DNA of 64,000 bases from Prauserella halophila (GTDB lineage: Bacteria; Actinomycetota; Actinomycetes; Mycobacteriales; Pseudonocardiaceae), in the NCBI RefSeq assembly GCF_024171895.1, contig NZ_JAMTCQ010000010.1:434001-498000 (forward strand), written 5' to 3'. Under the pieces are notes generated by a model. That model saw only the letters and a list, made by a program, of their open reading frames with translations. It was not told where the DNA came from and made no database searches. The position numbers were made by a program, and so were the translations under genes. Shown piece after piece: positions 23,481-62,067 of this stretch; the stretch's first letter is position 1, and every line of letters begins with the position of its first letter.

Positions 23481-23610
23481 GCCGTGTTGCAGGTTCCGGG
23501 GATCGTGTTGCGCTTTCCGGGGCCCGTGTTGCAAGTTCGGGTCCGCCCCGCGTGTTCTGCACTCAGCCCCGCGTGTCCTGCATTCGGCACCGCGTGTTCT
23601 GCACCTGGGC
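23481..23610 (+). repeat. 21-nt intergenic repeat array, locus A
   Basis: Six head-to-tail units lie between convergent pirin and GatB/YqeY genes. The first three are GTGTTGC units, the third carrying extra bases. The last three are variants GTGTTCTGCACTCAG, GTGTCCTGCATTCGG and GTGTTCTGCACCTGG. All but one are 21 bases long. Related arrays are at 24151, 28716, 34700, 57989 and 61771. Confidence 0.85.
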
Positions 23611-23652
23611 GTTGCCCGGAGCCTGCGGACGCGGGCGCCGGTCCACGCCATC

Positions 23653-23690
23653 GTGCGGGTACGGGTACGGGTACGGGTACGGGTGCGGGT
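23653..23690 (+). repeat. Hexanucleotide repeat (GGGTAC)n
   Basis: About six GGGTAC/GGGTGC hexamers follow locus A, just before the 3' end of the GatB/YqeY gene. The gap is non-coding. Confidence 0.8.
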
Positions 23691-23736: not shown

Positions 23737-24105
23737 TCAGCCGTCCACGAACCGGGCCAGCACGGACGCCTCGTACCGGACGGCTTCGGCTGCGTCGTGT
23801 TGCCCGAGCCGGTCGTAATCGGCCGCGTTCGCCCTGCGTTCGTCGACAGCCGAGCGCACGATGCCGGTCACGTCCTCGCCCGTCAGCTCCCGGCGTGCGA
23901 CGTCGGCCGTGCCGACCCCGGCCACGGCTCCCGCGACGTTGTCCGAACCCGCATCGGGAGCGGTTTCGGCCTGCACGGCTTCGGCGTTGTCGATGGCGCC
24001 GAGAGCCGAACGCAACGCTGACGTCGCTCCCTTGTCCTTCGTCTTCATGGCATCTTTCAACGCCGTCCGCATGGCGGCGCGCAGCTCGGTCACCTGTTCC
24101 GTCAC
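23737..24105 (-). CDS. GatB/YqeY domain protein
   Basis: About 122 residues. The family is recognised from VTELRAAMRTALKDAMKTKD, ALRSALGAIDNAEAV and the C-terminal helical bundle (GIVRSAVDERRANAADYDRL and AVRYEASVLARFV). YqeY proteins resemble the tRNA-binding tail of the GatB amidotransferase; the function is unclear. GTG 24105 is chosen at the start of homology with no clear ribosome site. An upstream TACGTT may be a -10 element, suggesting a leaderless transcript. Confidence 0.82.
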   Translation of the reverse strand: MTEQVTELRAAMRTALKDAMKTKDKGATSALRSALGAIDNAEAVQAETAPDAGSDNVAGAVAGVGTADVARRELTGEDVTGIVRSAVDERRANAADYDRLGQHDAAEAVRYEASVLARFVDG

Positions 24106-24150
24106 CGGCGTAACGTAGCAACGCCGCGCCGGTACACGCTTCCCGTTTTC

Positions 24151-24195
24151 GCCGCAACACGGCCCCCGGAATCCGCAACACGGCCTCCGGATCCG
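24151..24195 (-). repeat. 21-nt intergenic repeat array, locus B
   Basis: Two or so units in minus orientation. The reverse strand reads GCCGTGTTGCGGATTCCGGG followed by another GCCGTGTTGCGG. The array lies upstream of the GatB/YqeY start, in the divergent gap before the GNAT gene. Confidence 0.8.
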
Positions 24196-24445
24196 GTCGT
24201 TCTTGCGGTCGACGAGATCGAACCAGCCGTCGGAGTCCGTGCAGTCGACGTCGTCGCGAGTTCCCTCGCCGCCGTCGGCCACCGCGGGCTGATCGTGCGG
24301 CCGCCCGTGCGCGTGTGTCAAGGTTGGACAGTGGAGGCCGATGCCACCACTCGGCCACGATTTTCCGTCGTGCGAGGGAGAATCGGCCGACATCGGGAGC
24401 GGCCGGTCACCGCTCGCGCAGCGCTCCCCAAGCGAGGTGATCTCG

Positions 24446-28657: not shown

Positions 28658-28715
28658 GCCGCAACCCGGGCCCGTCACGCACAGCGCTTCGCCGACCGCC
28701 GCCTGCGAAGGGCCG

Positions 28716-28761
28716 CCCCGGAACCCGCAACACGGGCCCCGGAACCCGCAACACGGTCGGC
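28716..28761 (-). repeat. 21-nt intergenic repeat array, locus C
   Basis: Two exact 21-nt units in minus orientation; the reverse strand core is GTGTTGCGGGTTCCGGGG. The array lies downstream of the VOC gene and upstream of the 6C-like RNA. Confidence 0.85.
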
Positions 28762-28796
28762 ATCTCACCCGGATGGGTGAGTTTCGCGTGGGTGCG

Positions 28797-28905
28797 TCAT
28801 CGGAGGGCGCGGGGCCGCTCTTCCCTGGTGCGCACCCTCCCTCCCCCAGAGGGCGCGCCGGCGCCGGCCCTTGGACCCCCAGCAAGGGCCGGCGCCCCTT
28901 TTTTT
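28797..28905 (+). ncRNA. 6C-like small RNA
   Basis: Two adjacent hairpins have C-rich loops. The first is 28830-28858 (stem GCGCACCCTC with GAGGGCGCGC, one mismatch, loop CCTCCCCCA). The second is a perfect 14-bp stem at 28860-28873/28883-28896 with loop GACCCCCAG, followed by seven T. Twin C-rich loops ending in a terminator are the hallmark of the actinobacterial 6C sRNA, which pairs with G-rich mRNA targets. The 5' end is approximate. It lies upstream of nhaA and has no overlapping gene. Confidence 0.7.
28860..28905 (+). terminator. Intrinsic terminator with T7 tract
   Basis: GGCGCCGGCCCTTG with CAAGGGCCGGCGCC, loop GACCCCCAG, then CC and seven T. It is the only textbook T-tract terminator of this strength in the window. 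Confidence 0.9.
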
Positions 28906-28966
28906 GCCCGAGTGCGGGTCCGGGGCGGCGGTCGGTGTCCGGCCTCGGGGCGGCGGGTGTCGGCGC

Positions 28967-30602: not shown

Positions 30603-30645
30603 CACCGCCGCGGCCCCGGGGAAGCGCGCTGCGCTCTCCGGGGCC

Positions 30646-30797
30646 GCGCTGTGTTGGCCGCGCTGTGCTGGCCGCGCCGAGTTGACCGCGCTGTGTTGGC
30701 CGCGCTGTGCTGGCCGCACCGAGTTGGCCGCGCTGTGTTGGCCGCGCTGTGCTGGCCGCGCCGAGTTGACCGCGTCGAGTTGGCCGCGCTGGGTTCC
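30646..30797 (+). repeat. 14-bp tandem repeat with 42-bp higher-order unit
   Basis: Eleven 14-bp units follow nhaA. The cycle GCGCTGTGTTGGCC, GCGCTGTGCTGGCC, GCGCCGAGTTGACC is repeated three times as a 42-bp block, then a diverged copy. It lies between convergent genes with no coding evidence. Confidence 0.9.
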
Positions 30798-34699: not shown

Positions 34700-34783
34700 C
34701 GCGTGTCCTGCACCCAGGACGCCGTGTTGCGGATTCCGGGGCGCGTGTTGCAGTTCGCGGGGCCCGTGTTGCGGGTTCCGGGA
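34700..34783 (+). repeat. 21-nt intergenic repeat array, locus D
   Basis: Four exact 21-nt units lie between convergent lutC and a deazaflavin gene. The first is a hairpin-type unit (GTGTCCTGCACCCAGGAC); then come three GTGTTGC units. A decayed fifth unit follows. Confidence 0.88.
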
Positions 34784-34859
34784 CGGTGCTGCGGTTCAGA
34801 GGGTCGTCCGTAGCCGGGTGGCGGTGGCGGCCGGGTCGGCGCAGTCGCCGATCGACGAG

Positions 34860-57988: not shown

Positions 57989-58030
57989 GCCGTGTTGCGG
58001 ATTCCGGGGCCCGTGTTGCGGATCCCGGGG
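57989..58030 (+). repeat. 21-nt intergenic repeat array, locus E
   Basis: Two exact units (GTGTTGCGGATTCCGGGG and GTGTTGCGGATCCCGGGG cores) lie between convergent nuclease and response-regulator genes. Confidence 0.88.
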
Positions 58031-58035
58031 ACCAC

Positions 58036-58638
58036 TCAGATCCATCCCTCTTGCCACGCGTGGTGCGCGGCCGCGTACCGGGTCGGGACGTCCAGCTTCG
58101 TCATGGCCGACGAGAGATAGTTGCGCACCGTCCCGGGAGCGAGGTGTACGTGGTCGGCGATCGCCTGCACCGAGTCGCCGCCGCGCGCGGCTCGCAGCAC
58201 GTCGAGTTCACGAGCCGACAGCGGGCAGCTGTCCTCCGTCAGCGCGGAAGCCGCGATCTCGGGGTCGACGTAGCGGTGCCCGGCGGCCACTCCGCGCAGG
58301 ATCTCGGCGAGCCGGGCCGCGGGCGTGGTCTTGGGGACGAAGCCACTCACCCCGCTCGCGAGCGCGCGGCGCAGCACCCCGGGGCGCGCGTGCCGGGTGA
58401 CGAGCACGATCTGCAGGCCGAGCTCACGGCGAATCTCCTCGGCAGCGACCAGTCCGTCGGCCGGGGGCATCTCCAGATCGAGCACGGCGATGTCGGGGTG
58501 GTGCTCGCGGGCCTGGGCGACCGCGTCGCTGCCGGTGGCCGCCTCGGCGACCACCTGCAGGTCGTCCTCGAGATCGAGCAGGGTGGCGAGGGCGCTGCGG
58601 ACGAGCACCTCGTCGTCGGCCAGCAGCAGGCGAACCAT
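58036..58638 (-). CDS. LuxR-type response regulator (DesR-like)
   Basis: 200 residues. Receiver: MVRLLLADDEVLVRSALATL with acidic pocket, phospho-Asp in DIAVLDLEMPPADG and the Lys near VPKTT. The LuxR HTH is LSARELDVLRAARGG and VRNYLSSAMTKLDVPTRYAA. It is the partner of the adjacent histidine kinase (2-bp gap). It probably controls the divergent ABC exporter. Confidence 0.92.
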   Translation of the reverse strand: MVRLLLADDEVLVRSALATLLDLEDDLQVVAEAATGSDAVAQAREHHPDIAVLDLEMPPADGLVAAEEIRRELGLQIVLVTRHARPGVLRRALASGVSGFVPKTTPAARLAEILRGVAAGHRYVDPEIAASALTEDSCPLSARELDVLRAARGGDSVQAIADHVHLAPGTVRNYLSSAMTKLDVPTRYAAAHHAWQEGWI

Positions 58639-58640
58639 GC

Positions 58641-59924
58641 TCACCCGCCTTCGGTCGTCGGTAGTCGCGCCGTCACGGTGAACCACTCCCCGTCCTGGCG
58701 CCACTCCACGGTGCCGCCGAGGGCGTCGAACCGGCCGGCGAGGCCGGTCAGACCGGTGCCCGTCGCCGAATCCGTTGCCGAGTCCGCCGTCGAGTCCGTC
58801 GCGGCGGAGCCGTCGTTGCGGATGCGCAACACCGCCCAGCCTGCGTCGACGTCCAGTGCGAGGCGGGCGTGTGCGGCGTGACTGTGCCGCAGGACGTTGG
58901 TGGTGGCCTCGCGGGTGACGAGGGCCAGCAGCTTGCGCTGGGCTTCCGGGATGGCGGCGACGGCGTGCTCGGTGCGTCCGTCGAGGCGCCCGTCGATTCC
59001 GGCGGCGGCGAGCACTCCGGTGGCGTTGGCCAGTTCGGCGTCGAGCGAGGCGTGCCGGTATCCCTGCACCACCGCCCGAGTGTCCCGCAGGGCGGTGCGG
59101 GCGTGTTCCTGCACCTCGCGCATCTGTTCGCCCGCCGCGGCGGGGTCGAGCTCGGCCAGCCGCTGGCCGAGCTCGCTCTTCAGCGCGATGACCTGCAGGT
59201 GGTGTCCCTGGATGTCGTGCAGATCGGAGGCGAAGCGTAGCCGCTCGTCGGCGACCGCGAGCTCGCCTTCCAGGCGGCGGGCGTGCTCCAGGCGTTCGAC
59301 CGCGTCGCAGGCCCACAACCCGTAGATCAGGAATCCGCCGATCGCGGCGATCAGCAGAGCGCTCGCCGCGATTCCCACGAGATCCGGCGGTCCGGCGGTC
59401 GCGGTCTGTGCCGCTGCGGCCGCTCCCGCCGTGACCAGCACCGCACCGGCCACGACCGTGGTGCGGTGGCGCCGGGCGACAGTGACGGCGAGGCCGCCGG
59501 TGACCAGGCCGGGCACGATCGCCCATTCCGCGTCGTCGCTGAGCCACTGGGCCGCGAGCGTCACGGCGAGTCCACCGGTCACCGCGAGTCCGATCAGCGC
59601 CACCGGAAGGCCGTCGTCGCCGTCGGCCGAACCGTCCGCGGTGGGAAACCGCCGCTGCAGCAGACGTCCTGCGCCCAGTGAACCGGCCGCCGCCGCCACG
59701 GCAGTGCCGACGGTCAACGGTCCCCACGGCTCGGTGGCGAGGATCGCGACGACGACGAAGGCGCCTGCCGCGTAGACCAGCCCGACCAGCGCCCACCAGT
59801 TGTGCCGGCGCAACCGGTCCGCTCCTGCGGCTCTCAGCCCGGCCGAGGAGTCGTCCGCGGCCGGGCCCGGCCCGGCGGGCTCCGCCGACGTGGCCCGTAC
59901 GGGTGCGCGGTCCATGACGGTCAT
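58641..59924 (-). CDS. DesK-like sensor histidine kinase
   Basis: 427 residues. Six or so membrane helices at about 45-220 are followed by the dimerisation box DLHDIQGHHLQVIALKSELG with the phospho-His (about 259) and the ATPase region with EATTNVLRHSHAAHARLALD and GTGLTGLAGRFDALGG. The sensor is membrane-embedded (DesK type), suggesting it reads bilayer state or a lipophilic ligand. ATG 59924 or 59915 starts it. Confidence 0.92.
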   Translation of the reverse strand: MTVMDRAPVRATSAEPAGPGPAADDSSAGLRAAGADRLRRHNWWALVGLVYAAGAFVVVAILATEPWGPLTVGTAVAAAAGSLGAGRLLQRRFPTADGSADGDDGLPVALIGLAVTGGLAVTLAAQWLSDDAEWAIVPGLVTGGLAVTVARRHRTTVVAGAVLVTAGAAAAAQTATAGPPDLVGIAASALLIAAIGGFLIYGLWACDAVERLEHARRLEGELAVADERLRFASDLHDIQGHHLQVIALKSELGQRLAELDPAAAGEQMREVQEHARTALRDTRAVVQGYRHASLDAELANATGVLAAAGIDGRLDGRTEHAVAAIPEAQRKLLALVTREATTNVLRHSHAAHARLALDVDAGWAVLRIRNDGSAATDSTADSATDSATGTGLTGLAGRFDALGGTVEWRQDGEWFTVTARLPTTEGG

Positions 59925-60046
59925 CGTCCCGCAGCCGGGCCGCTCCCACCAATGACATCCGTCATCGGCGGGCGTGCGGAGTGCACCGGAACGGCTGTGG
60001 TTTCGGCACTGTCGGTTCGCGCCGCGCGAACCGCACGCTGGTTCGC

Positions 60047-61000
60047 ATGGACACCACCGAGGCCCCTGCAGTCCACGTACGTGGACTGCGCTGCACCTAC
60101 GGCGAACACGAGGCCGTGCGCGGCGTCGATCTCGACGCACCTCGCGGGGAGCTGCTCGCGGTGCTGGGCACCAACGGGGCGGGCAAGACGACGACACTCG
60201 AGGCGATGCAGGGCCGCCGCAGGCCCGCAGGCGGCCGCGTGCGGATCCTCGGCCTCGACCCGGTTCGGCAGCGCCGCGCCCTGGCCGCGCGGATCGGCGT
60301 CATGTTGCAGGACAGTGCGCTGCCCGCCGAGCTGACGCCCGCCGAGTTCCTCGCTCTCTGGAGCCGCCTGAAACGGGACCGGCCCACTCCCGGGTCGATG
60401 CGCGAGCAGCTCACCGCCGTCGGTCTCGCGCACCGCCGGAACGTGCGCATCGGGCGGCTGTCGGGCGGGGAGCGCCGCCGGCTCGACCTCGCTGTCGCGC
60501 TGACCGGCGCCCCCGAGCTCCTGTTCCTCGACGAGCCCACGTCCGGCTTGGACCCCGAGTCACGTGCCGCGACCTGGGAGCTGATCCGGGGCCTCCTCCG
60601 GACCGGTTCCACCATCGTGCTCACCACGCATCACCTGGAAGAGGCCGAGGCGCTGGCGGATCGGCTGCTGATCCTCCACGAGGGCACCGTGGCCGTCGCG
60701 GGCACCTTGTCCGAGATCGTCACCGCGCGCCGCGCCACGATCCGTTACGAGCTCGTCGGGGCCGGGCCCGCCGTTCCGGAGTCCGAACTCGTCGGCAGGG
60801 CCTCGGTCACGCCGGAGCGAGGGGTGCGGCTCGTCGAGATCCGCACCCCGGACCTCACCCGGGACCTCGGCACGTTGTTGCGCTGGGCCGAGACGCAGCG
60901 GTCCCAGCTTCATCGGCTGCACAGCAGCGAAGCAACGCTCGCCGAGATCTTCCACGAGATCAGCACCACGCACGTTTCGGAGGAGGCCACGACATCATGA
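60047..61000 (+). CDS. ABC transporter ATP-binding protein
   Basis: 317 residues. Walker A LGTNGAGKTTTLEAM, signature RLSGGERRRLDLAVAL, Walker [16 protein letters not shown] and H-loop TTHHLEEAEAL. A DrrA-like C-terminal domain follows. ATG 60047 is in a divergent promoter shared with the DesKR-like pair. Its stop overlaps the permease start. Confidence 0.93.
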   Translation: MDTTEAPAVHVRGLRCTYGEHEAVRGVDLDAPRGELLAVLGTNGAGKTTTLEAMQGRRRPAGGRVRILGLDPVRQRRALAARIGVMLQDSALPAELTPAEFLALWSRLKRDRPTPGSMREQLTAVGLAHRRNVRIGRLSGGERRRLDLAVALTGAPELLFLDEPTSGLDPESRAATWELIRGLLRTGSTIVLTTHHLEEAEALADRLLILHEGTVAVAGTLSEIVTARRATIRYELVGAGPAVPESELVGRASVTPERGVRLVEIRTPDLTRDLGTLLRWAETQRSQLHRLHSSEATLAEIFHEISTTHVSEEATTS

Positions 61001-61722
61001 ACGCGACCTTCGCGCTTGCCCGCGCCGAGCTGACCCTGCTCCTGCGAAACCGCACCGCGGCGACGAACGCCCTGCTGCTGCCGCTGGCCCTCGGAGCACT
61101 GTTCATCGTCAAGCCCCCGCCGACCGGACTCACCGGAACCGCCGCGTCGATGCTGCTGCTCGCCCTGGTCTGCCTCACCGTCGCGAGCACCGCGACGACC
61201 ACGCTGGTCGCCCGGCGCCAGCAGCACCTCCTGCAGCGGTGGCGGACCGCTCCGATCGCGCCACCGGCGGTGCTGGTGTCCACACTCGGTCCCGTCGGCG
61301 TGCTGTTCGTGGGCCAAGCGGCGATGCTGCTGACCGTCCTGGCCTACGCCACGAGCTCGGTACCGGCCCACCCTGTGCTCCTGGTGCTGGCCGTCGTGCT
61401 CGCCGGGGTGCTGGGCTGCGCAGTGGCGTTCGTGACGGCCGCGTTCACCCGTACCGTCGAGGCCACCAACTTCACCCTGCTGCCCGTCCTCGTGGCCCTG
61501 GCAGGAGGGGGCGTGTGGGCCACCGCGGCTGCCGGAGAGGTCACCTGGGCGATGCGGGCGACCGGCGGCGGCGCCGTGGCCGAACTCGTCCATCTCGGCT
61601 GGGACGGGAGCGAGACCCGAGCCCTGACGGCTGCCGCACCCAGCGTGCTCGTCCTCCTCGCCCTGATCGTCGGAACCACAACGCTGGCGCGCCGCTACTT
61701 CCGCTGGGAGCCGCGCAACTAG
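60997..61722 (+). CDS. ABC-2 type permease
   Basis: 241 residues with six helices (near 25-40, 48-68, 88-110, 120-145, 158-175 and 208-228) typical of DrrB-like ABC-2 permeases. ATGA couples it to the ATPase gene. The substrate is unknown; control by the adjacent DesKR-like system suggests lipids or a membrane-active compound. Confidence 0.85.
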   Translation: MNATFALARAELTLLLRNRTAATNALLLPLALGALFIVKPPPTGLTGTAASMLLLALVCLTVASTATTTLVARRQQHLLQRWRTAPIAPPAVLVSTLGPVGVLFVGQAAMLLTVLAYATSSVPAHPVLLVLAVVLAGVLGCAVAFVTAAFTRTVEATNFTLLPVLVALAGGGVWATAAAGEVTWAMRATGGGAVAELVHLGWDGSETRALTAAAPSVLVLLALIVGTTTLARRYFRWEPRN

Positions 61723-61770
61723 GTTCCGACGGGTGAGCGGTCCGCCGGGTGAGCGCTCGGCGGCAACCGT

Positions 61771-61917
61771 GCCGTGTTGCGGATCCCGGGGCCCGTGTTG
61801 CGTTCTCCGGGGCCCGTGTTGCGGATTCCGGGGATCGTGTTGCGCTTTCCGGAGGCCGTGTCGTGGTTTCCGGGGCGCGTGTTCTGCATTCAGCACGCCG
61901 TGTCCTGCGCTCAGGAC
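61771..61917 (+). repeat. 21-nt intergenic repeat array, locus F
   Basis: Seven clean 21-nt units (an eighth is decayed). The first four have GTGTTGC cores; unit 5 is diverged (GTGTCGTGGTTTCCGGGG). The last two are GTGTTCTGCATTCAGCAC and GTGTCCTGCGCTCAGGAC. It is the longest array, between the ABC permease and the convergent dihydrofolate-reductase-like gene. Confidence 0.9.
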
Positions 61918-62067
61918 GCTGCGTTGCACCCACCCGTCGCCCAGCCGCCACCCCTCACGGACGCGCCGGCGCGCGGCTGTGTTCGATGGGGCCGTATTGC
62001 GGTCGACGGGCGTGGCTCGATCGGTCGAGCGGGGGAGTATTGCCGGACGATCGAGCGTGAGACGTCC
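61918..62067. other. Gap between repeat array and DHFR-like gene
   Basis: No gene-like frame or clear hairpin. Together with the repeat array it forms the convergent gap at the 3' end of both flanking genes. Confidence 0.35.

Follow-up and report, generated by a model that had tools for sequence, protein, structure and literature searches.

Phased 21-bp repeat arrays behind genes of Prauserella: candidate protein-binding rows in the place of hairpin terminators

Arrays of a 21-bp unit, arranged head to tail, recur between genes across the genome of Prauserella halophila, commonly just behind a stop codon and most often between convergent genes, and our reading, held tentatively and with a probability of about 0.4, is that they are rows of putative protein-binding sites at gene 3' ends, acting in place of hairpin terminators. 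According to this proposal, a sequence-specific site recurring every 21 bp, precisely two turns of the helix, would set copies of one protein side by side along one face of the DNA, and such a row, standing behind a stop codon, mostly in a convergent gap, would block or release the RNA polymerase leaving the gene and would keep transcripts out of the opposing gene, the job of a hairpin terminator elsewhere in the genome. The position of the arrays, their orientation bias, rigid spacing, conserved scaffold and inheritance in place, as well as their occupation of the hairpin's place, were all observed in the genomes compared. A phase kept rigidly at 21 bp is what proteins lined up along DNA would naturally require, whereas single-stranded RNA gives no reason to expect it; taken with the position, the sense bias and the missing hairpins, it suggests phased binding arrays. 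We infer from this binding by a protein, with DNA rather than RNA as its target, and an end of transcription at the arrays; transcript insulation may be an alternative or an added role of the putative binding rows, and our best reading is that these end or insulate transcripts.

The Arrays of the Window

The family was noticed in a stretch of 64,000 nucleotides of P. halophila (the window), for which the earlier note had described six arrays of about 23 units in total, all outside genes and four of them between convergent genes. This description stands: the six arrays are present, offset by no more than a few bases (Table 1), the units counted by eye are 6 + 2 + 2 + 4 + 2 + 7, all six arrays lie outside genes as called here, and those starting at 23483, 34702, 57991 and 61773 are in convergent settings according to our own gene caller, the array at 28714 being flanked by co-directional and that at 24152 by divergent genes. 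An exception to the gene calls is that 24152–24195 falls within a longer possible start of a YqeY-like gene (ORF 23737–24393). An 18-mer core, with up to 3 mismatches, gives 14 matches in the window versus 0.08 expected in shuffles. The units are contiguous at 21 bp, with no unique spacers, in agreement with the earlier view that this is not a CRISPR.

Table 1. The six repeat arrays of the window (positions in the window; A and B, unit types).
Position	Strand	Units	Setting
23483..23613	+	3 A-type, then 3 B-type	convergent gap, 17 nt past the stop of a Pirin gene
24152..24195	-	about 2 A, one intact, with parts of others	divergent gap
28714..28755	-	2 A	behind a glyoxalase-like gene, antisense to that gene
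34702..34785	+	B-A-A-A	convergent gap, LUD-domain / F420H2-quinone-reductase-like genes
57991..58032	+	2 A	convergent gap, preceded by a hairpin with a 14-bp stem
61773..61919	+	5 A and 2 B	convergent gap, 50 nt past the stop of an ABC-2 transporter gene

The divergent array looks like an orphaned 3' end when compared with Prauserella aidingensis (G004), where its counterpart is found 11 nt past the stop of a gene for an AMP-binding enzyme that is not at the corresponding place in the window; the exception is explained by this position of the P. aidingensis array. The counterpart of the 28714 array in the same species has 7 units in the same place, and at the 34702 locus an array is also present in G003, G004, G005 and G006, all of the same genus. 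Two further repeats were seen in the window, nearly six copies of the hexamer CGGGTA directly after the first array (23656–23690) and, in a different gap (30642–30795), 11 copies of an unrelated 14-bp / 42-bp tandem repeat, GGCCGCGCTGTGTT. Searched against Rfam at the gathering score, the window has no family on the arrays and only three tRNAs.

Position Relative to Genes

Genes were called by our own codon-usage script rather than by a standard caller, so that start codons and some of the small genes are uncertain. In 1.264 Mb of the window's own genome (G000), 55 of 56 arrays avoid the called genes, and a scan of the reversed sequence gives 1 array; the stretches of contigs C1 and C2 were picked after the positions of the matches had been seen, and array densities are therefore not to be extrapolated. 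With 0.8 Mb of a second species (G006) added, 2.06 Mb altogether, 74 of 75 arrays are outside genes and one is inside, and intragenic placement as common as intergenic, the contrary outcome named by the earlier note, is not seen. The gaps holding the 74 arrays are convergent in 42 cases, tandem in 26 and divergent in 6. Within 40 nt, 41 arrays have a stop codon in the sense orientation and 17 one in the antisense orientation (p = 0.002), while a start codon is this close to a single array. Convergent arrays are closer to the sense stop in 29 of 42 cases (p = 0.02), and the tandem arrays divide into 16 sense and 10 antisense.

For the window's own genome, arrays were also compared with random placement in gaps, using a stricter definition of the unit, under which 46 arrays were placed versus 56. 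Twenty-four of these 46 are in convergent gaps, whereas random placement, over 2000 trials, gives 6.9 and at most 16; likewise, 26 have a sense stop no more than 60 nt away, versus 4.0 expected (maximum 11). Taken by itself, the side chosen does not reach significance in this genome (16 of 24 convergent arrays nearer to the sense stop; tandem arrays 10 sense, 8 antisense), and sense orientation is preferred without being obligatory. In a second genus (g4), in pieces chosen around known matches, 14 of 23 arrays begin no more than 60 nt from a sense stop, and called genes contain 2. Overall, the enrichment at convergent 3' ends that the earlier note had proposed to look for is found (24/46 in the own genome, 42/74 in two genomes), and its suggestion of a termination or DNA-structuring signal is plausible for a family that is intergenic genome-wide and enriched at such ends. 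Phased tandem sites behind genes are also what is seen in a protein-roadblock terminator array.

Arrays in the Place of Hairpins

In convergent gaps of 60–600 nt, hairpins of -25 kcal/mol or better were counted outside the array. Such a hairpin is found in 11 of 42 array gaps, versus 204 of 284 draws from array-free gaps of the leftover length and, when the same mask is laid on full-length array-free gaps, in 106 of 336; the leftover DNA is often in short pieces, which lowers the chance of a hairpin and may explain part of the difference. At a cut-off of -20, the respective numbers are 25/42, 248/284 and 179/336. An earlier comparison (22/38 versus 146/154) is superseded by this better-controlled one. 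The masked and the leftover-length controls together indicate that the array sits in the hairpin's place and not beside a hairpin, so that arrays seem to stand where a hairpin terminator would otherwise be.

One locus, at 57991, presents both elements in various combinations. Hairpin and array are present together in G000, G003 (with a degenerate array) and G006; in G004 the hairpin is short of one arm, with a smaller stem of -22.7 and the array kept, and in G005 the whole hairpin is lost and the array kept, while G002 has a hairpin without an array, and G001 has no array and a weaker fold (-22.2). Evidence on the other side comes from four paired orthologous convergent gaps with an array in only one of the two species: a hairpin reaching -25 kcal/mol is present in the array-free partner in one of the four.

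Unit Anatomy, Spacing, and RNA-Level Readings

Two flavors of the unit, built on one scaffold, are found in Prauserella: A, CGTGTTGYGNNYYCCRGRGNY, and B, CGTGTYCTGCRYTC plus 7 positions (for example, at 23551–23613 and 61878–61919). A units were picked by the first half, which keeps the second half clear of selection bias; in the 86 distinct ones, no constraint is seen at positions 10, 11 and 20, only pyrimidines stand at 12 and 13, purines prevail at 16 and 18, and 17 is invariably G; a position-weight matrix built by free iteration drifted and was not used. A general 10.5-bp motif of two blocks was considered and dropped, since two conserved blocks are present in A only and are missing from B and the second genus, leaving no general 10.5-bp argument. 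Most arrays are of 2–6 units (86 of 91 in the 2.06 Mb), the largest having 10, and orientation is uniform in 52 of 56 clusters, units of both orientations being found in 4, which differs from the alternating orientation of REP/BIME elements. Likewise, the A consensus is not palindromic, although some B units are partly so.

The spacing is rigid. Distances below 30 bp from one A core to the next are 21 in 128 of 131 cases and 20 in the other three, and period-20 pairs number 1–7 per carrier genome of the genus, versus 177–342 at period 21. Neighboring units form 239 pairs at 21, with 1008 substitutions between them, and other spacings (17–25) are found in 6 pairs, although the unit finder may overlook units with an inner indel; in 127 orthologous array-free gaps, taken as a control, 787 indels accompany 3014 substitutions (3.8 substitutions per indel). 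Either a slip by one base is selected against, or the units arise by a process that yields substitutions without slips, and birth by tandem duplication could be a partial source of the rigid spacing.

That the arrays might be RNA-processing signals, as had been suggested, finds no support from structure, as the RNA of the arrays folds no better than column-permuted arrays (mean z -0.01). An A unit is able to pair with its neighbor through G-U pairs, and in 50 of 51 A arrays the sense RNA is more stable than the antisense. Two-unit RNA hairpins were rejected as a conserved principle, column-permuted arrays folding equally well, and, with folding at the null and consensus units without a T run, the arrays do not resemble intrinsic terminators. 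Coding of heptapeptides was also rejected: the variable positions ignore codon third positions in every frame, the distance to the stop codon is without a clear frame (24, 14, 13), and 74 of 75 arrays are outside genes.

The next best reading for the C-rich B units, and an unlikely one in our judgment, is termination at the level of RNA, with B units, C-rich in the sense strand, as a loading site for Rho and the G-rich A units as a pause zone. It would fit the base counts of the consensus units (8 C and 5 G in B, 10 C and 5 G in the second genus, 9 G and 6 C in A), the order of units, B preceding A in 20 of 25 mixed arrays, the lower folding of the sense RNA of B (-0.35 kcal/mol per nt, 9 arrays) than of A (-0.45, 51 arrays), and the sense bias of the arrays. 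However, loading on RNA should tolerate a change of spacing by one base, at odds with 6 off-spacings against 1008 substitutions, and arrays of A only, which are G-rich, are common. Equally to be doubted is a role of the arrays in topology or nucleoid structure, by which they would bind gyrase or a nucleoid protein at the supercoils that build up between convergent genes and leave termination unaffected, in the manner of BIME-2, an element that binds gyrase according to a passage of PMC2817692. Convergent enrichment and phasing of the DNA type agree with such a role, but it predicts neither the sense bias, nor a distance of a few nucleotides from the stop codon, nor the replacement of hairpins.

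Distribution among Genomes

Throughout the window's own genome (5.05 Mb, 16 contigs), 214 matches are found at up to 2 mismatches, and none with the reversed pattern, so that the family is not limited to the window, another contrary outcome that the earlier note had named. The matches to A are uneven in two of the contigs: 1 of 10 loci (up to 1 mismatch) is in the first 800 kb of C1, and all ten A-type loci of C3 are in its last 130 kb, dnaA being at C3:46104. An exact scan of named genomes, which may exclude records near the window's own genome, gave 19 stretches, all from Prauserella (rugosa, isguenensis, alba and aidingensis). Among 60 genomes, with the own genome included, 93–316 matches are found in 5 of the 6 other members of the genus, 1 in the sixth (G001), and 0–3 in each of the 53 genomes outside the genus.

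A looser scaffold pattern, of two neighboring units, CGTGTYSYGNNYTC twice at 21 bp, was scanned for in 150 genomes of the family, and such pairs were found in 14, the reversed controls giving 0 throughout. Six of the 7 genomes of the genus have 177–342 pairs each. All 4 genomes drawn from the second genus have them as well (83, 26, 8 and 75), the 83 matches of G009 lying between 0.23 and 5.39 Mb on its single contig of 5.55 Mb, while in a further genus (g15) they are present in 1 of 4 genomes (6 pairs), and three further genomes have a single match. The unit of the second genus has diverged, to CGTGTCCTGCRYTC followed by a variable seven, with the first half similar to that of Prauserella. No scaffold pairs are found in G001, a 91% complete genome of the same genus, where the family either was lost or arose after the split; a genome without array pairs indicates that the system is dispensable. 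A wider version of our proposal, in which a share of the genes would end by protein roadblock, chromosome-wide, polar to transcription and through one dedicated putative protein, with the 21-bp phase kept and the recognition sequence evolving between genera, is somewhat more doubtful than the proposal itself.

Inheritance and Rearrangement

Where gene order is conserved between G000 and G006, 17 distinct gaps hold an array in at least one species, and 11 of them do so in both (18 of 24 when shared gaps are counted from each side), versus 10 of 475 array-free conserved gaps with an array in the other species (3/149, 3/88, 4/152 and 0/86), units with up to 3 mismatches being accepted in the other species and up to 2 for the array-free baseline. 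All 11 shared arrays have the same orientation, and their unit numbers are mostly different. The array at 61773 differs from its counterpart in G004 at 4 of 147 positions, without a gap, its flanks differing at 13 of 140 positions plus 26 gap columns downstream and at 4 of 47 upstream.

These comparisons bear on the possibility, quite improbable to us, that the arrays are functionless tandem repeats, expanding through slippage and gene conversion and tolerated nowhere but in 3' gaps. Turnover of unit number between species would be expected of such repeats, as would identical neighbors (22 of 239 pairs) and a genus member, G001, without the family; on the other hand, conservation is uneven along the unit, with pyrimidine-only positions, indels are in shortage, the scaffold is common to a second genus, and at one locus the array has changed less than its flanks.

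Some rearrangements are found next to arrays. G005 and G006 lack a 3.7-kb block (58036–61760) at the corresponding site, where an array marks the junction; the block, which is array-flanked and 97% identical between G000 and G004, encodes a response regulator, a histidine kinase and an ABC transporter. In G004, a segment of about 144 bp near 28775 lies inverted, with opposed arrays on either side (window 28775–28914; L145 18612–18755; 144 columns, 87%, opposite strand); it holds a long G+C-rich hairpin, followed in the window by a T7 run, is without an Rfam match, and may represent either a terminator or a gene for a small RNA. A plasmid origin was rejected, as the array at 61771–61917 is without a match in the plasmid collection. 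The proposal that the arrays are hot spots of recombination or mobile modules bounding gene gain and loss, to which the missing block, the inversion and the excess of synteny breaks at array gaps seen from G000 (12/23 versus 99/336, p = 0.03) would lend themselves, is highly improbable, as the excess is not reproduced from G006 (12/25 versus 147/385, p = 0.4), leaving the link with synteny breaks weak, and most arrays in conserved gaps stay put. The mobile element considered by the earlier note is likewise disfavored by inheritance in place and in the same orientation (11/17 gaps) and by the distribution of the REP-type transposase family, IS200/IS605-like Y1_Tnp (PF01797), which is present in 4 of 11 genomes (G002, G006, G078 and G130) and absent from five clear carriers of the arrays (G000, G003, G004, G005 and G009).

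Comparison with Known Systems

Among the literature matches listed, no description of the array family was found, and the six unit strings are absent, save for one unrelated paper. As with REP/BIME elements, which a passage of PMC2817692 links to gyrase binding and Rho-dependent termination, intergenic copies are many, but the arrays are head-to-tail and not imperfect palindromes in alternation, they have no GTAG head, and five clear carriers lack the respective transposase family. The mycobacterial MIRU-VNTRs are likewise actinobacterial tandem intergenic repeats of variable unit number, while the arrays stand at 3' ends and keep a rigid phase, with units of 21 bp that are shorter than those of the MIRUs. 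The iterons of plasmid origins consist of direct repeats, about 20 bp long and arranged head to tail, that a protein binds cooperatively, and the arrays are likewise direct repeats of about this length, but many and dispersed at gene ends rather than at a single origin. With intrinsic terminators the arrays share the place and, by replacement, probably the job, differing in having no strong conserved hairpin.

If our reading is true, termination by DNA-bound proteins becomes testable as a normal, genome-wide way of ending bacterial genes, and the array sequence may serve as recognition bait for finding the putative cognate protein; annotators, meanwhile, should beware of spurious heptapeptide ORFs over the arrays. 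In eukaryotes, the Sal-box arrays bound by TTF-I are tandem terminator sites, and we know of no chromosome-wide use of such protein-roadblock sites in bacteria. For the Prauserella arrays, in contrast, the cognate protein is putative. As with TTF-I and with Reb1, whose roadblock termination is the subject of a title cited in PMC10310618, the sites are found just behind the gene, and a polymerase stopped by bound protein is the putative working model for the arrays.
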